Below, piece by piece: positions 27,048 through 51,079 of a stretch of DNA of 54,698 nucleotides (positions are counted from its first letter, which is position 1; the number at the start of each line of letters is the position of its first letter). Both the position numbers and the translations under genes were made by a program. Below the pieces are notes generated by a model, which was not told the origin of the DNA, searched no databases, and worked only from the letters and a program-made list of their open reading frames with translations. Source of the DNA: Nautiliaceae bacterium (lineage in GTDB: Bacteria > Campylobacterota > Campylobacteria > Campylobacterales > Nautiliaceae); contig JAMOQT010000127.1 of assembly GCA_027063865.1 (NCBI GenBank), forward strand, positions 1 to 54,698, in the 5' to 3' direction.

Positions 27048-27097
27048 GAAAATGGAAATTCAAAATTCATAATTTAATATTAATTTTCCATTTTTCA
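27048..27097. repeat. AATGGAAATT inverted repeat
   Basis: AAAATGGAAATT at 27050-27061 and AATTTTCCATTTTT at 27083-27096 form an inverted repeat around AT-rich sequence with TTCAAAATTCAT. It belongs to the family of AATGGAAAAT words that also occurs at 30043-30076, 31277-31312 and 46282-46325. It lies downstream of prfA and next to the heptamer array. Confidence 0.5.
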
Positions 27098-27140
27098 CTC
27101 TTCACTCTTCACTTTTCACTTTTCACTTTTCACTTTTCAC
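27092..27140 (-). repeat. Seven-unit heptamer tandem array (GTGAAAA/GTGAAGA)
   Basis: Read on the plus strand: TTTTCAC, TCTTCAC, TCTTCAC, then four TTTTCAC units, 49 bp with no gap. Read on the minus strand, it directly follows the prfA stop codon. Pure heptamer arrays change length by slippage, so copy number probably varies between strains. It is not CRISPR (no spacers). Confidence 0.85.
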
Positions 27141-27142
27141 TT

Positions 27143-28210
27143 TTATAGTCCCGCTTCTTTTAAAGCTTCGGCCTGATAGTGAGCGATTAGCGGGTCGATT
27201 ATCTCATCAAACAGCCCTTCGTTCATAATTTGTTCGAGTCTGTAAAGTGTCAAGCCGATTCTGTGGTCGGTAATTCTGTTTTGAGGGTAATTGTATGTTC
27301 TGATTCTCTCACTCCTATCACCACTTCCAACCTGACTTTTTCTGGCTTCTCCTATTGCCGCAAGTCTTTCATTTTCAAGTTTTTCATAAACCCTGGCTTT
27401 TAATATCTGCATTGCTTTTTCTTTGTTTCTCTGCTGGCTTCTTTCATCCTGCATTGATACGGTTATACCTGTGGGAATATGTGTCATTCTAACGGCGCTT
27501 TCGGTTTTATTTACGTGCTGTCCTCCGGCTCCTCCCGCTCTCATTACCTCTATTTTGATGTCTTTTGGGTCAAGATCTATATCAACATCGTCAACTTCAG
27601 GCATAACCGCCACTGTAACGGCAGAAGTGTGAATTCTTCCCTGTGATTCTGTTTGTGGGATTCTTTGGACCCTGTGGGTTCCTCCTTCATATTTTAGACG
27701 TGAATAAACGTTTTCACCTTTAATGAGTAAGATTATTTCTTTATATCCTCCTACGTCGTTTTTGCTTTCACTTACAATTTCAACTTTCCAGCCTTTGTTG
27801 TCGGCATATCTTAAATATGCCTTTAATAAGTCTCCCACAAACAGTGCGGCTTCATCTCCGCCTGTTCCGGCTCTTATTTCAAGGAAAATGTTTTTATCAT
27901 CGTTTGGGTCTTTTGGTAAAAGAAGAATTTTAATCTCTTCTTCAAGTTTTGGCAGTTTTTCTTCTGCATCTTTCAGTTCTTCTTTTGCAAGTTCTGCCAT
28001 CTCCGGATCTTCTAACATCATTTTGGCTTCTTCTATTGTTTGAATAAGGCTTTCGTATTCTTTGGCTTTTTCAACGATAGGTTCTAGATTTCTCGCTTCA
28101 CGAGAAAGTTTTGTCATTTTTTTAATATCCTGTGTAATTTCCGGAGAGCTTAATAATTGATTTATTTCATTATATTTTTCTACAAAAGGTCTTAATTTGT
28201 CAAGTAGCAT
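27143..28210 (-). CDS. prfA: Peptide chain release factor 1
   Basis: 355 residues, full length. The GGQ motif that triggers peptide release is in [18 protein letters not shown], and the codon-recognition segment is [18 protein letters not shown], where the RF1 P-x-T motif is Pro-Gln-Thr. It reads UAA and UAG. The start at 28210 ([13 protein letters not shown]) is preceded by AAAAGGATATTAA. prfB (RF2) is also in the window at 43139. It is downstream of rpsT with a hairpin-rich spacer between. Confidence 0.96.
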
Positions 28211-40777: not shown

Positions 40778-40822
40778 TTGAGAATGGAGAAAGGAGAATT
40801 GATTCTGGATTATAGATTTTAG

Positions 40823-40853: not shown

Positions 40854-41243
40854 ATGCAATACTCTTTGCCAAGGGATGCTTTTGAAATATTAAGAGAAAC
40901 CTTTAACTCTAAAGAAAAAGCGGAAAAGTTTGCTAAAGCTATAGAGGAGATAGTGAATTTTGCACGGCAAAAAGCAAAAGATGAAATAACGGAGAAAAAA
41001 GAATATTTAAAAATAGAATTAAAAGAAGAGCTTAAAAAAGAATTGGTTACAAGAGAGCTTTTTGAAGAAAGATTTAAAAGTATAGATGAAAGATTTAAAA
41101 GTATAGATGAAAGATTTAAAAGCATAGATGAAAGATTTAAGATGCTTGATTTTAAAATAAACATTTTAATAGCTTTGACTTTAATCGTTATAACATTTGC
41201 CAATCCTACATTTGTTGAGCTAGTGAAAAATTTGTTTAAATAA
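40854..41243 (+). CDS. Membrane-anchored coiled-coil protein with ERFKSID tandem repeats
   Basis: 129 residues: N-terminus [17 protein letters not shown], a long charged coiled coil, three perfect ERFKSID heptads, and a C-terminal membrane helix ([15 protein letters not shown]). It is a paralogue of the protein at 44932 (N-terminal PRD-x-F, coiled coil, C-terminal helix with F-x-NP). The build recalls DUF1640/Bdr-type coiled-coil proteins; no function is known. AAAGGAG and a clear -10 give it its own promoter. It is convergent with panC, overlapping it by eight bases. Confidence 0.85.
41067..41141 (+). repeat. 21-bp in-frame tandem repeat (three and a half units)
   Basis: GAAAGATTTAAAAGTATAGA-T at 41067-41087, the identical unit at 41088-41108, one with a single change (AGC for AGT) at 41109-41129, and a partial fourth. 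Each unit adds one heptad of coiled coil, so length changes keep the frame and heptad phase. Confidence 0.9.
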
Positions 41244-42117: not shown

Positions 42118-42462
42118 ATGAAATGCATAAATTTAAAAGTTTGGAAAAGAAGCTGTAGATTAAGTGCAGATATTTATGTTTATTTTAAAAATTGTAAAGA
42201 TTTCGGTTTTAAAGATCAAATTACCCGTGCTTCTTTATCAGTAGCAAGCAATATTGCAGAAGGAATTGAAAAAGATTCAAAAAAGGAAATTAAAAGATTT
42301 CTAAATATTGTACAAGGCTCAATAGCCGAAACTATTACACAGATATATATTGGAATGGAAATTAATTATATTAAAAAAGAAATCGGGTTTAAATGGATAA
42401 AAGAGTATGAAGAAATTTTAAAAATGATATCGTCTTTAAAAAAAACTTTTACTGAAAACTGA
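42118..42462 (+). CDS. Four-helix-bundle protein of the S23/23S rRNA-intervening-sequence family
   Basis: 114 residues: the pattern [36 protein letters not shown] and [16 protein letters not shown] matches the S23/IVP family. These proteins are found within intervening sequences of 23S rRNA genes or as free genes; the structurally related Avd protein works with diversity-generating retroelements. No rRNA gene or reverse transcriptase is in this window. The C-terminus (KKTFTEN) merges into ACTGAAAACTG words. A nearby -10 suggests a leaderless mRNA. Confidence 0.88.
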
Positions 42463-42486
42463 AAACTGTATACTGAAAACTAAAAG
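42449..42486 (+). repeat. ACTGAAAACTGTATACTG word repeat, right arm
   Basis: Begins inside the last codons of the S23-type gene, contains ACTGAAAACTGAAAACTGTA and TACTGAAAACT, and ends next to the AAAAGGATAAAA ribosome site of the MntA-like gene. Inverted relative of 42067-42104. Confidence 0.5.
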
Positions 42487-43138: not shown

Positions 43139-44242
43139 ATGGACGCATACGAATACGGTGAATTGATAAAGAATCTTGAAAATAAAATAGAAAATATCGA
43201 ATCGATTTTAAAACCTGAAAAACTCGAAGCAAGGCTCAAAGAAATAGAAGAGATGGAAAACGATCCGGATTTTTGGAACGATCCTAAAAAAAGCGCAAAA
43301 ATACAAAAAGAAAAAAATGCGATTTTAAGAAAACTTGAAAAATATAAAAAAGCAAAAATGGCGCTTCAGGATAATAAGGATATGTTCGAACTTGCAAGCA
43401 TGGAAGAAGATGAAGAGACGCTGAACGAAGTGTTTGAAGATGTAAAAGAGCTTCAAAAAATAATAAGAGACCTTGAAATAGAAGTAATGCTAAGTGACGA
43501 AAACGATTCGAAAAACGCAATCATTTCGATACATCCGGGAGCCGGTGGGACTGAATCTCACGACTGGGCTTCAATACTTTACAGAATGTATCTCAGATAC
43601 GCCGAAAGAAGAGGCTGGAAAGTTGAGGTGTTAGATTATCAGGCGGGGGATGAAGCTGGAATAAAGGATGTTAGTTTCCTTGTTAAAGGCGAAAACGCAT
43701 ACGGATATCTTAAAGCCGAAAACGGAATACACAGATTAGTTAGGGTTTCTCCTTTTGACAGCGGAGGCAGAAGACACACATCTTTTGCTTCTGTTCAGGT
43801 TTCACCCGAAATTGACGATGATATAGAAATAGAAATAGACCCGAAAGACATAAGAATAGACGTATTCCGCGCAAGCGGTGCGGGCGGACAGCACGTAAAC
43901 AAAACCGAAAGTGCTGTAAGAATTACACACATTCCTACCGGTATAGTTGTCGGATGTCAAAATGACAGAAGCCAGCATAAAAACAAAGAAATGGCAATGA
44001 AAATGCTAAAATCCAAACTTTATGAACTCGAGCTTGAAAAAAGAAAAGCCGAGGAAGAGGGCAAACCAAAAGATGAAATGGGATGGGGGCATCAGATAAG
44101 GAGTTACGTTTTATTTCCATATCAACAGGTAAAAGACAACAGAAGTAACAAAGCCTATTCAAGGGTTGAGGATATACTTGACGGAGACCTTGATGAAGTA
44201 ATTGAAGATGTTTTGATTGCTCAAAAGGAAGCGGAAATTTGA
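43139..44242 (+). CDS. prfB: Peptide chain release factor 2
   Basis: 367 residues. The RF2 codon-recognition tripeptide SPF is in [13 protein letters not shown] and the catalytic GGQ is in [15 protein letters not shown]. It reads UAA and UGA. The frame is open from [12 protein letters not shown] with no UGA near codon 26, so the programmed frameshift used by E. coli prfB is not needed here. It is 2 bp after hepT, and its stop overlaps the TTG start of the first pilin-like gene (TTGA). No Shine-Dalgarno other than the one inside hepT is visible. Confidence 0.95.
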
Positions 44243-44862
44243 AAAAAGCTATAACGTTAATCGAACTTATTTTTACAATTGTTATTATTGCTGCTGTATT
44301 TACAACCATTCCGAAAATAATATATGTTAGCAATAAAAGCCTTGAATTTTCCAGAAAAGAAGATGCAATATTTAATATGATGAGTAAAATGATGGATGTT
44401 TCGCTTAAAGAGTATGATAAGAAAAATACCGAGTATGACGATATTTTATTAACGAAACAAAATCTTGATCTTGAATGTGATGCCACCACAGGATACAGAA
44501 AAGGGGGATTTAAAGGCAGCAGGAACTGTTTAAACGGAATTGAAGAGAGTAATATTCCGAGTAATTCAAGCGGGGAATATGATTATATTGAAGGATACAA
44601 CGGATATACCGATACATTAAATAACGGGCATACCACTTATACTTTAAAAATAGATGTTAACTATTCAAATGAATGGAGTGGTGGGAATTATAATTATGAT
44701 AATCAAGAATTAAGTTTTAATTTTGATTCTACAAGTGATGATAAAAAAAATATAAAAAGAGTTAGCGTAAGCGTTGAAGATTCAAGCGGTAACATAATAT
44801 CATCAGTCAGTTACTACAGCGCAAATATAGGACATATAAAAATAAACAGTGTGCAATGGTGA
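44239..44862 (+). CDS. Type IV minor prepilin (MSHA-like), TTG start
   Basis: 207 residues. The N-terminus [20 protein letters not shown] is a prepilin signal and helix; cleavage would be after Ala, not Gly, which is a less common residue at that site. Glu5 is present. The rest has Gly/Asn-rich beta segments ([19 protein letters not shown]). The TTG start overlaps the prfB stop; AAGGA lies eight bases upstream. This is the first pilus gene of the operon that runs to the end of the window. Confidence 0.85.
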
Positions 44863-44904
44863 TATAGAACTGAGAATTAATTTTGAATTTTCGTTTTTCG
44901 GATA

Positions 44905-44913
44905 TGTTATAAT
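44905..44913 (+). promoter_or_regulatory. Extended -10 promoter of the coiled-coil protein gene at 44932
   Basis: TGTTATAAT (TG-N-TATAAT) 18 bp before the ATG, with AAAAAGGCG between them. It lies inside the pilin operon, so downstream genes may also use it. Confidence 0.55.
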
Positions 44914-44931
44914 TATACAAAAAGGCGATAT

Positions 44932-45318
44932 ATGAATTACACAATTCCGAGGGATTTATTTGATGAATTAATTAAAAATATCGGAAAAGAGAGTGCGGAA
45001 AAATTTGCAAATGCTTTTGAGAAATTTTTAAATGTGTTTGCAAAAAAAGTTGAAGAAAATATTGATAAAAAAAAAGAGAGTTTAAAAGCCGAACTTTATA
45101 ATGAATTAAGAAGCGAACTTGCAACAAAAGAGTTTGTCCGCGCGGAAATAAACGAAGTCCGGGCGGAAATAAACGAAGTAAGAGCCGAAATAAACGAAGT
45201 CCGGGCGGAAATACAGAAAAACAATTTGCTTTTAAAAGTATTAATAGGAATTTCGTTATTTGCATTGACTATCTTTAATCCGAATTTTATAACAATAATA
45301 GAAAAAATTTTTAAATAA
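44932..45318 (+). CDS. Membrane-anchored coiled-coil protein with AEINEVR tandem repeats, paralogue of 40854
   Basis: 128 residues: MNYTIPRDLFDELIKN, a charged coiled coil (KKVEENIDKKKESLKAELY), three and a half copies of RAEINEV and a C-terminal membrane helix (LLLKVLIGISLFALTIF) before NPNFITIIEKIFK. It shares with 40854 the PRD-x-F start, the Ser/Lys-x-Ala-Glu-Lys-Phe-Ala segment and the C-terminal layout, but the repeat unit has a different sequence. It stands between two prepilin genes, in the same frame as the following prepilin, so a stop-codon change would fuse them. Function unknown. Confidence 0.85.
   Translation: MNYTIPRDLFDELIKNIGKESAEKFANAFEKFLNVFAKKVEENIDKKKESLKAELYNELRSELATKEFVRAEINEVRAEINEVRAEINEVRAEIQKNNLLLKVLIGISLFALTIFNPNFITIIEKIFK
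45139..45213 (+). repeat. 21-bp in-frame tandem repeat (three and a half units)
   Basis: CGCGCGGAAATAAACGAAGT-C, then CGGGCG.. and AGAGCC.. versions of the same 21 bp at 45160 and 45181, and a partial fourth. GC content is higher than in neighbouring DNA. As in 40854, one unit is one heptad. Confidence 0.9.
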
Positions 45319-45327
45319 GGATATAAA

Positions 45328-46281
45328 ATAAAAAGAGGTTTTACGTTAATTGAATCAATTTTTGTAATTGTTATTTTAGCTTTTGTATTAATAGGCGGTT
45401 TTCAGATTTTAAATAAGCTTTACGTAAGAAATTTCATAGCAAAAAAAACTGCCGAATTTGAGCTTCAATCCCAGCAGACATTGGATCAGGTGGCACAGTT
45501 TCTCTATTACAGGGTACCTTTGAGTACTATCGGATATGACCCTGTAAATCATGATTTTAAATATATAGGCGAAATAAACGATAACAATTATTCCGTATTG
45601 GAATGGATAGGTTATTTAAGCGATGCGATGGTTGAGAGGAATTTAAGCGGTTTTGCGGATTTGTATGCAAGTGATAAAAACAACAAGGTTTTAGCAGCTA
45701 AAGATTTTAATACAAGTTTTATAAATGATGTTTTGCAAAATAAATTTAATTCCGGAAACAATATTAAAAATTCTACGGCAATTATTTTTGCAGGAAGTTT
45801 TGACAGGGGGGAGGAAGGGGCTTTGGATAATTACAGTAATTCATTCGGATGGCATGGAAATAATCATAATTATGTATTTACCATTACAAATACAGCTGAT
45901 TCGGGAGATAACGACTGTAATCTTACACTTGATGAAAATGTTACGGGAAAAAGGATTTATGAAAAATTTTATCTGGTAGACAGTGCGTATGCAATAGCAT
46001 TGTATAAGGATATAAAAAATAATTGGAATTGTAATGATTTGGATTCTAATAAATTAAATGATGACGATTTGTTACTGTTTTATAATTACCGTCCTTGGCT
46101 TGGGGAGACGTTTTGTGCCGATAATAGTGGAAAATCTGAAGGCAATGTGACATTATTGGCTCAAAATGTTACTGCTTTTAGGGTTAGGAAAATAAATTCA
46201 CATCTTGTTTTAAAAATTACAATGAATAAACAAAAAGCCGATATTAACGTAACAGTATCAAAGCAGAAGGTGGCGTTTTAG
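45328..46281 (+). CDS. Type IV minor prepilin (MshO-like) with an apparent ATA start codon
   Basis: 317 residues if started at 45328. The N-terminus reads KRGFTLIESIFVIVILAFVL, a perfect prepilin signal (Gly-1, Phe+1, Glu+5). The only codons between the upstream in-frame stop (45316-45318) and KRGF are GGA TAT AAA ATA. AAGGA at 45317-45321 is exactly six bases before ATA. No ATG, GTG or TTG is available until TTG at 45481, which would remove the pilin helix. So either AUA starts translation, or the gene is a recent start-codon mutant, or the base call is wrong. The C-terminal part is Asn/Asp-rich with NVTAFRVRK near the end. Confidence 0.8.
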   Translation: MKRGFTLIESIFVIVILAFVLIGGFQILNKLYVRNFIAKKTAEFELQSQQTLDQVAQFLYYRVPLSTIGYDPVNHDFKYIGEINDNNYSVLEWIGYLSDAMVERNLSGFADLYASDKNNKVLAAKDFNTSFINDVLQNKFNSGNNIKNSTAIIFAGSFDRGEEGALDNYSNSFGWHGNNHNYVFTITNTADSGDNDCNLTLDENVTGKRIYEKFYLVDSAYAIALYKDIKNNWNCNDLDSNKLNDDDLLLFYNYRPWLGETFCADNSGKSEGNVTLLAQNVTAFRVRKINSHLVLKITMNKQKADINVTVSKQKVAF

Positions 46282-46325
46282 AATGGACAATGGACAATGG
46301 AAAATGGAAAATGAAAAGTGAAAAG
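46282..46325 (+). repeat. AATGGACAATGGAAAATG word repeat between two prepilin genes
   Basis: AATGGACAATGGACAATGGA then AAATGGAAAATGAAAAGTGA, starting at the base after the upstream stop codon and filling most of the 55-bp gap. It is the same word family as 27048-27097, 30043-30076 and 31277-31312. Confidence 0.65.
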
Positions 46326-46336
46326 GTTTTTTTTAA

Positions 46337-46774
46337 ATGAAAAAAGGATTCGGGCTTATAAGTGCTCTTATTATTATGCTTTTGATAGCAACACTTATGG
46401 TGGCGGTTGTTAAATTCGCTTTTATTTCGGTAAATCACACATCCGATACCTATTTGCAGCAGCGAGCTCAGCTTTTTATGCAAAGTGCGATAGAAAACGC
46501 TATTATGGCTATTGAAGGTTATGACAGAAAAAAGAAAAGCAATTGTTTGAAAAATATTCATTTTGTTGATGAAAACGAAAGGTTTGAAGCAAATATTACC
46601 GTATTAAGATATTATTGTTATAACGGAAATTGCGGTTGCAATGATAGTACACTTGAAAAACCAATTAGTACACCGCAGTCACACGGTTATGTACTGATGA
46701 AAGTGGTGGTTGCGAATAAAAATTCAGATATTAAGAAAATAAGACTTGAAAAAGTCACTCTTCAAAGGCCTTAA
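46337..46774 (+). CDS. MshP/PilX-like minor prepilin
   Basis: 145 residues. KKGFGLISALIIMLLIATLM has the Gly-Phe cleavage site but Ser at position 5 instead of Glu, as in MshP, PilX and GspK-type pseudopilins that cap the pilus tip. A Cys-rich C-terminal loop (YYCYNGNCGCN) may form disulfides. The start follows a T-rich run; AAGG is upstream but weak. Confidence 0.82.
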   Translation: MKKGFGLISALIIMLLIATLMVAVVKFAFISVNHTSDTYLQQRAQLFMQSAIENAIMAIEGYDRKKKSNCLKNIHFVDENERFEANITVLRYYCYNGNCGCNDSTLEKPISTPQSHGYVLMKVVVANKNSDIKKIRLEKVTLQRP

Positions 46775-47236
46775 ATGAAAGCGTTTAGTTTGATTGAGCT
46801 TATTTTTGTAATAGTGATTATGGGTGTTTTGACATTTTTAGGAATGCAGTATATGCCTGATGAGAAACTGACGGCTTATACACAGATGCTTAAAGCTAAA
46901 ATTATGGAAAAAAAATCAAACGCTCTTGGATATAAAACAACGGAAAGTGATTCATATTATTGTATTAAATTCAATAAAGACTGGCTTGCAAATGATGAAT
47001 CAGATTCTAAAATAAAATTTGATTTTAATAAAAGTTACATTACATTAGACGTTTCACCGTCATTGAATGATAACACACTCTGTTTTGATTATATGGGAAG
47101 GGATTTTAATGGAAGTGTGGGTAAAAATTTGACAAATTTATTACATAAAAATATAATTATTACCGTAATAAGAAGTGACAAAGAAAATGAAAAACAAAAT
47201 ATAACTGTATTTCCGGTAACAGGCACAGTGAGGTGA
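46775..47236 (+). CDS. Type IV prepilin (MshC/MshB-like)
   Basis: 153 residues. MKAFSLIELIFVIVIMGVLT is a prepilin helix with Ala-Phe at the cleavage site and Glu5. One Cys pair (SYYCIKF, TLCFDYMG) suits a disulfide. It starts directly after the stop of the previous gene. A main pilin or a minor one cannot be told; its short length and Cys pair fit either. Confidence 0.83.
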   Translation: MKAFSLIELIFVIVIMGVLTFLGMQYMPDEKLTAYTQMLKAKIMEKKSNALGYKTTESDSYYCIKFNKDWLANDESDSKIKFDFNKSYITLDVSPSLNDNTLCFDYMGRDFNGSVGKNLTNLLHKNIIITVIRSDKENEKQNITVFPVTGTVR

Positions 47237-49248: not shown

Positions 49249-49631
49249 AAAAAATCTTATTTTTGTTAATTGCTGTGTTATTATACGGTGATATTTCAGA
49301 TATAATCACTTATATAAAAAAGATGGAGTCATACACACCTGAATTTAAAAGGATTGTAAATTATAATGTCTTTTCTGATATTATTGAAGAAAAATCGGAA
49401 AATTTGAAAATAAATGGAAATATAAGCAACTCTATATATGTAAATAAAAATATTGCAATATACGCGGTTTTTCAGAATAAAATAAATATAAACGGACAGT
49501 GGTATAAGATAGGTGATATTGTTTATGGATACAAAATAGTTAAGATTACAAATGATAAGGTTTTTTTGAAAAAAAATAATCGTATAAAAATAATAGAATT
49601 TAAGACAAGTGTTATAAAGGTTATAAAATGA
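49245..49631 (+). CDS. MshK-like periplasmic protein (PilP/GspC HR-domain-like)
   Basis: 128 residues. A signal peptide or anchor (KKILFLLIAVLLYGDI) is followed by a small beta domain with NGQWYKIGDIVYGYKIVKI and VFLKKNNRIKIIEF, the pattern of PilP/GspC HR domains that link the inner membrane parts to the secretin. GGAG lies six bases before the ATG at 49245; an upstream TTG is less likely. It overlaps the secretin gene (ATGA). Confidence 0.75.
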   Translation: MKKILFLLIAVLLYGDISDIITYIKKMESYTPEFKRIVNYNVFSDIIEEKSENLKINGNISNSIYVNKNIAIYAVFQNKININGQWYKIGDIVYGYKIVKITNDKVFLKKNNRIKIIEFKTSVIKVIK

Positions 49632-51079
49632 AAAAACTTATTTTAATATTGATTTTCATAAATGCTATTTTCGCAACGACTTGTAATAAAAAAATGTTTT
49701 CCCTTCATATTATACAGCCTGTTAGCTTAAAAACGATACTTGCTGATTTGGTAAACGAGTGTAAAATAAATATAATTTTAAAAGACGCAAACGCAAAAAA
49801 AATGATAAATCAAAATATTGAGTTTGTAAATATTGAAAATGTAAGTTTTAAAAAACTTCTTGAAACTATATTCGAACAAACCGCTTTTTTTTATGAATTA
49901 AAAAACAATACGCTTTATGTTTCGTCATATAAAACAAAAACTTTTAAAATCGATTATATTCCAAATTCAATTACAGGTAAAACCAATATTAACAGTGATA
50001 ATTACAACAGCAATTCCGATGATGAAGATGACAGTGACACTAAAAGCGGTGAAAACAGTATTACTTCAAATTATAAATTTGATTTTTGGGATGGTTTGAA
50101 AGACAATATTACACAAATTTTGAAAAATACCGAGACAAAATATAAAAAGCCTGTTATTGACAGAAATTCGGGTTTAATTACTGTAACAGGTAACAAAAAT
50201 CAATTAGAAGAGATTGAAAAATATATAAATCATCTGAATGAAAGACTCCACAGGGAAGTCTTTATTGACGTAAAAATCTACAGTGTTACTTTGTCCGAAA
50301 GTCATAAAACTGGTATAGACTGGTCTAAACTTTCTTTGAGTCTGGGTTATAATAAATATGTGGAAAATCCGGCAAGACCTTCAAAAATTATAGAAAATTA
50401 TGAAAGTACTTTAATTAGAAGTAAAAATATAATTGGAAGTCAGTCTATTTTCAGCAAGGCAGTGTTTAATGTTTCAGGACTTTTAAATTTTCTTGCTCAA
50501 AATGGAAATGTAAATACGGTATCTAATCCTAAATTAGTTGTGTTAAATAATCAAAAAGCAATGATAAGTGTGGGTAAAAAAATATATTATAAATATTCTG
50601 ATTCTTTAAGTGAAGATGAAAACGGTAAAACTACTCAATCATATACAATCGGTTCTAAATTTGTGGGTGTGCTTTTAGACATTACCCCTCAAATAAGCGA
50701 CAAGGGAGAAATAATATTGAATATCAATCCGAAAATAAATGAATTGTTAAATCCTTCGGATGTAGATGTGGTAAACAGGGACAGGCCTCCTAATACCAAG
50801 GAAAATACCTTAATGAGCGTTGTCAGAATAAAAGATGGTAATACGCTTGTTTTAGGCGGACTTATAATGGATGATAAAGAATTAAAAGTCAACGGCGTTC
50901 CAATTTTAAAAGAAATTCCTTTAGTTAAATATCTTTTTTCTTCAAGAGAGCAGATTTCGACAAAAAAAGAGCTAGTATTTGTAATAACTCCTCATATAAT
51001 TAATCATACAAAAAAAACAACTTTAAAAGATTACGGGTATGATGCACTTCCTGATTTAGAGGATTTAGATGTTAAGTAA
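49628..51079 (+). CDS. mshL: Secretin of the type IV pilus (MshL-like)
   Basis: 483 residues. It has a signal peptide (KKLILILIFINAIFA), an N-domain with LKTILADLVNECKINIIL and a second N-domain (ITVTGNKNQLEEIEKYINHL). An Asp/Asn-rich spacer (SDDEDDSDTKS) lies between them. The secretin C-domain has VSNPKLVVLNNQKAMISVG and VPILKEIPLVKYLFSS. It forms the outer membrane ring through which the pilus passes. It is shorter than PilQ, like MshL. ATGA overlap with the previous gene. Confidence 0.9.
   Translation: MKKLILILIFINAIFATTCNKKMFSLHIIQPVSLKTILADLVNECKINIILKDANAKKMINQNIEFVNIENVSFKKLLETIFEQTAFFYELKNNTLYVSSYKTKTFKIDYIPNSITGKTNINSDNYNSNSDDEDDSDTKSGENSITSNYKFDFWDGLKDNITQILKNTETKYKKPVIDRNSGLITVTGNKNQLEEIEKYINHLNERLHREVFIDVKIYSVTLSESHKTGIDWSKLSLSLGYNKYVENPARPSKIIENYESTLIRSKNIIGSQSIFSKAVFNVSGLLNFLAQNGNVNTVSNPKLVVLNNQKAMISVGKKIYYKYSDSLSEDENGKTTQSYTIGSKFVGVLLDITPQISDKGEIILNINPKINELLNPSDVDVVNRDRPPNTKENTLMSVVRIKDGNTLVLGGLIMDDKELKVNGVPILKEIPLVKYLFSSREQISTKKELVFVITPHIINHTKKTTLKDYGYDALPDLEDLDVK

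Follow-up and report, generated by a model that had tools for sequence, protein, structure and literature searches.

A minor prepilin gene of a Nautiliaceae bacterium with a candidate AUA start beside an inserted gene

The gene for IF3, infC, has autoregulated AUU or AUA starts in Escherichia coli and Staphylococcus aureus. Bacterial AUA starts are documented for only a handful of genes. In S. aureus, infC, ccpN and citZ have AUA starts behind Shine–Dalgarno (SD) sequences, and the starts of ccpN and cvfC1 are conserved among relatives (PMC13009471). For the two S. aureus genes tested in reporters, AUA gave about 10–30% of the output of AUG: about 10% in poor medium and, with ccpN in rich medium, as much as 30% (PMC13009471). 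Here we describe a prepilin gene with a candidate AUA start in a Nautiliaceae genome (GCA_027063865.1), on a contig of 54,698 nucleotides (JAMOQT010000127.1) that was analysed in full and is referred to below as the window. Relatives are denoted by genome handles (G001 and so on, the present assembly being G000) and locus handles (L).

The prepilin gene and its proposed start

Read from position 45316 onward, the sequence runs TAA, GGA TAT AAA, ATA, AAA AGA GGT TTT ACG TTA ATT GAA, and the codons preceding this in-frame TAA (AAA ATT TTT AAA) are the end of an inserted gene described below (Table 1). Translation from 45328 yields 317 residues with the N-terminus (M)KRGFTLIESIFVIVIL. This segment contains the prepilin signal KRG^FTLIE, in which a basic leader ending in Gly is followed by Phe, a hydrophobic helix and Glu at +5. 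The first-pass annotation had recognized the N-terminus as a prepilin signal, and two profiles bear this out by reaching their cutoffs: Pfam N_methyl PF07963 (21.3 bits, cutoff 21.2) and NCBIfam TIGR02532 (21.0 bits, cutoff 16.3). The whole-protein cutoffs for GspJ (TIGR01711, 16.7 of 64.85 bits) and ComGF (NF041002, 21.4 of 80 bits) were not reached, the N-terminus alone matching these models. An AlphaFold model of the protein (mean pLDDT 89.8) has a long N-terminal pilin helix; structure comparison against the PDB gave no significant match, with the GspJ-like XcpW appearing only at E 1.4. Prepilin-like genes starting at 44239, 45328, 46337 and 46775 share the neighbourhood with an MshL-like secretin gene (242.3 bits on the MshL model, cutoff 250.2), and the gene belongs, as that of a minor prepilin, to an MSHA/type II-like pilus cluster.

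Table 1 Features of the prepilin locus and of the second gene with an ATA start
Feature	Position	Strand	Remarks
Paralogue of inserted gene	40854..41243	+	32% identity, E 3.6e-16
Upstream prepilin-like gene, TTG start	44239..44862	+	3' end carries relic start of downstream pilin
Relic ATG GTG, ancestral start of downstream prepilin	44856..44861	+	From orthologue comparison; now followed by ATA TAG
Segment missing at orthologous loci, ~465 bp, between relic start and pilin body	44863..45327	+	Edges accurate to within a few bases
Inserted gene with 21-bp repeats, for a 128-aa coiled-coil protein with C-terminal membrane segment	44932..45318	+	Absent from G001 and G002
TAAGGA, inserted-gene stop overlapping ribosome site	45316..45321	+	6 nt to ATA
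ATA, proposed prepilin start codon	45328..45330	+	Sole start-like codon between in-frame TAA and prepilin signal
Prepilin-type minor pilin gene, intact	45328..46281	+	317 codons plus stop; 316 after ATA
Next pilin-like gene, weakly GspK-like	46337..46774	+	Profile match
Next prepilin gene	46775..47236	+	TIGR02532 above cutoff
Secretin, MshL/GspD-like, same cluster	49628..51079	+	Profile matches
Membrane/TPR gene, ATA start	L082:14211-14663 (G000:C36; 14211-14660 also given)	-	Start read in relatives

The earlier annotation had also held that ATA was the only possible start after the in-frame TAA, and direct reading of the sequence confirms that no ATG, GTG or TTG lies between that stop (45316–45318) and the prepilin signal. 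The next canonical in-frame start is TTG at 45481, the use of which would delete the entire signal helix. A start in another frame followed by ribosome slippage was considered and rejected, since ATG, GTG and TTG are absent in all frames from about 45266 to 45328. The ribosome site had been described as ideal; AAGGA is indeed placed 6 nt before ATA, but the adjective is too strong, because AAGGA 5–6 nt before the start is ordinary within the window (for example, in the genes at 43139 and 42494).

The window contains 3,661 ATA triplets on its two strands, of which 0.9% have, at a usable distance, a match to the anti-SD complement that is 6 bases long or longer. Only three sites combine an upstream in-frame stop without an earlier start, an open reading frame of 100 codons or more and the absence of a canonical start from codons 1–10. 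The prepilin ATA has the longest anti-SD match among them (6-base), and a second site, another ATA within the same prepilin reading frame, has a 4-base match. The third, an ATA at 1078 on the minus strand (5-base match), belongs to a frame spanning about 224–1078 in which the conserved part starts only far downstream of this ATA. Structure of the mRNA at the pilin start was unremarkable (z 0.27). The pilin thus lacks a canonical start and has an SD sequence at a usable distance; its ATA is not conserved in relatives, the orthologues having ATG, GTG or TTG, or starts displaced in other ways.

Displacement of the ancestral start

The pilin protein was matched in 48 of 60 relatives searched. Among the best orthologues that align over their full length, with identities from 66% down to about 34%, the alignment begins at or beside the residue after the proposed start. 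At the orthologous loci L006, L008–L011 and L020 the pilin starts with ATG GTR followed by AAR, and at L019 with GTG GTA. In those relatives the pilin gene before it ends within the same ATGGTRA (as TGG TRA), so that the start of one gene and the stop of the other overlap. The window keeps CA ATG GTG A at 44854–44862, followed by TA TAG, and the pilin body restarts with AAA AGA GGT at 45331, which places the relic ATG 472 bp upstream of ATA. Loss of the ATG by point mutation is ruled out, because the relic ATG at 44856 and the inserted segment account for the gap; the comparison shows instead that a gene insertion displaced the normal pilin start, with no point mutation needed. A sister strain sharing this insertion did not turn up, and the pilin ATA codon is known from one metagenome-assembled genome (MAG).

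The inserted gene gave no match in G001 and G002, two complete genomes of the same genus, yet copies 72–77% identical occur in distant families of the order amid unrelated surroundings, a distribution that marks it as a laterally scattered gene. In G018, of another genus of the family, the copy is shorter, reaches 94% identity along one stretch and likewise lies in unrelated surroundings. A promoter scan inside the insert returned nothing above chance. The same small coiled-coil/membrane family is also represented at G000:C79:15610-15822; its members have variable 21-bp repeats and are scattered as single genes across the order. A short match shared with G000:C11 proved to be just a similar gene end, 'AAAAGGATATAAATG', rather than a further copy of the insert.

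The same junction has been altered in other genomes. G001 has GAGAATT-type heptamers, which give a TTG start placed two codons farther upstream; G002 (L005) has a GAAAATGG-type repeat plus an in-frame extension, and G004 (L007) has a short repeat that provides ATG. Because it was also invaded in these three genomes, the pilin junction evidently tolerates inserts, with a new start needed each time; in the window the candidate is ATA. Heptameric repeat spacers are also found between window genes (46282–46317, 40780–40798, 42451–42485 and 27092–27144), the heptamers being of the types AATGGAA, GAGAAAG, ACTGAAA and TTTTCAC.

A second gene with an ATA start

As a control for start codons, the fetched part of the assembly (the window and 60 whole or partial contigs) was compared with 1.59 Mb of G001, giving 277 matched non-overlapping genes, 21 of which were flagged and then inspected. 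Two of the 277 lacked a canonical start at the conserved N-terminus: the minor pilin and a membrane/TPR gene that follows miaB (named from its sequence, not by family search) and precedes a gene for a XerC-like recombinase. This TPR gene has GGAGAGAATATAAAAAAAGTA in the present genome and GGAGGTAATATAAAAAAGTTA in G001. Separately, L051:410-793 matches just the inner part of a longer frame in G001, so that the copy here is interrupted or truncated close to the end of its contig, perhaps through a frameshift.

Of 60 genomes, 43 had a TPR orthologue that could be located. Within the family, ATA stands directly before KK in all 16 resolvable genomes, representing four genera (G000-G005, G007-G009, G011-G013, G015, G016, G019 and G020, with G014 and G018 left out), the codon having been identified in most of them by pattern matches at the coordinates where it was expected, not in fetched DNA. 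GGAG precedes this ATA by 5–7 nt in the five genomes where it was read (by 6–7 nt in G007, G012 and G004), and in G012 an in-frame TAA immediately precedes ATA. In G032 and G049, which belong to another family, the codon at this place ends in TG, that is, NTG. The ATA of G001 overlaps the TAA of miaB, an overlap that might hold ATA there; in this genome a repeat-like spacer of about 90 bp parts miaB from the TPR gene and ATA is still retained.

The conservation of ATA in 16 of 16 genomes, set against NTG in the two genomes of another family, makes it very probable that members of this family initiate at AUA. This is strong sequence evidence for AUA as a working start codon in the family, although it does not amount to proof for the pilin. 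The TPR gene itself probably has a fixed AUA start and is likely mis-annotated. The chances seem evenly balanced that the family tolerates AUA both as a start fixed in the TPR gene throughout family history and as one newly adopted after an insertion, as in the pilin. The two cases make it testable whether near-cognate starts persist because low output is favoured or because selection on start codons is relaxed. As regards a dedicated AUA initiator tRNA, no UAU anticodon was present among the tRNAs found in about 1.59 of the 1.79 Mb of G001, where there were three CAU tRNAs. We also considered infC as an AUA gene and rejected it, as its start is ATG both here and in G001 (L106:8660-9071, L152:17255-17672), in contrast to bacteria that autoregulate infC through AUU or AUA.

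Competing explanations and comparison with known systems

Taken together, the observations suggest that the pilin is probably still made from AUA, its start having been displaced by an insertion into the start/stop overlap. According to the comparison with relatives, a coiled-coil gene landed in the pilin junction and thereby parted ATG GTR from the pilin body. At the new boundary, the inserted gene's stop and AAGGA overlap, with the putative AUA start 6 nt beyond. Ribosomes would probably be handed over from the TAA of the inserted gene, or would bind at the overlapping AAGGA, and the initiator tRNA would start at AUA to give MKRG^FTLIE, with a normal 4-residue leader. The yield would be below that of AUG, yet presumably enough for a minor subunit, and it is plausible that the AUA start keeps this minor pilin low. 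Three options had been listed in the first-pass annotation, a true non-canonical start, a phase- or mutation-silenced pilin and an ATG read as ATA, and the first now has the strongest support, given that another gene in this genome has an AUA start fixed throughout the family. A point against it is that the pilin SD is ordinary (5–6 bases) and does not match the strength of the extended SDs in S. aureus.

The insertion may instead have silenced the pilin, leaving an intact, barely translated gene on its way to becoming a pseudogene. In favour of this, the canonical start has been lost, as the silencing option had supposed, though to a gene insertion and not to a mutated base or a phase switch; AUA initiates weakly, at about 10% of AUG in several tests (PMC13009471); and the insertion could be recent. 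Against silencing, the reading frame continues for 316 codons without a stop or frameshift and keeps all 30 columns that are invariant among 18 orthologues, and its divergence is not raised. Identity to G001 and G002 is 65% and 64%, compared with 64/67% and 66/66% for the two flanking pilins, and dN to the same genomes is 0.25 and 0.28, a divergence equal to that of both flanking pilins. This intactness argues against long inactivity; the insertion itself is not datable, and a recently silenced gene would look alike. A correctly spaced ribosome site would be expected by chance at only about 1% (6-base) to 4% (5-base) of ATA sites, and the family-wide AUA start of the TPR gene means that the codon very probably works in this lineage. 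We therefore regard silencing as unlikely.

Less probable again is that the true base is G, so that the organism, or part of its population, has ATG and the ATA is a consensus error or reflects a strain mixture. ATA and ATG are one base apart, and the assembly is a MAG, 57% complete, with 951 kb in 127 contigs (the window being C127). Start-destroying errors are rare, however, given that only one other of the 277 matched genes lacks a usual start and that this gene has ATA in 16 genomes. A misread ATG is conceivable but is not needed to explain the sequence, as the original ATG persists upstream. A TAA codon is usually an efficient stop, and it is very improbable that the pilin is made as a fusion by readthrough of the in-frame TAA of the inserted gene: the stop and the pilin are in the same frame with only four codons from stop to ATA, but in a fusion the class III leader would be hidden behind 128 residues and a membrane segment, and an SD right at the stop favours re-initiation.

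Tolerance of AUA starts across the family, if real, would make them a working and systematically mis-annotated class in these thermophiles, and gene callers restricted to ATG, GTG and TTG will truncate or lose such proteins, export signals included. The pilin would also provide a traceable route by which an AUA start originates, through a gene inserted into a start/stop overlap. It would be a further gene of the known AUA-start kind with an unusually clear origin; its sister case, the TPR gene, is the more striking.

Like the GspJ and ComGF minor prepilins of MSHA, type II and competence pili, the protein has a class III leader and a long N-terminal helix and is encoded in a pilin cluster with an MshL/GspD-like secretin; unlike them, it scores far below the cutoffs of their models and has no significant match among solved structures. 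With the AUU and AUA starts of infC it shares a near-cognate codon expected to lower initiation, the difference being that neither AUA gene described here is infC. The closest parallel is with the AUA and AUU starts of S. aureus infC, ccpN, citZ and cvfC1 (PMC13009471), where an SD likewise directs initiation to a non-canonical AUN codon and a low yield is expected. Those cases were established by ribosome profiling and reporters and have extended SDs, whereas the present one is read from sequence alone and combines an ordinary pilin SD with a start that would have been created by an insertion.
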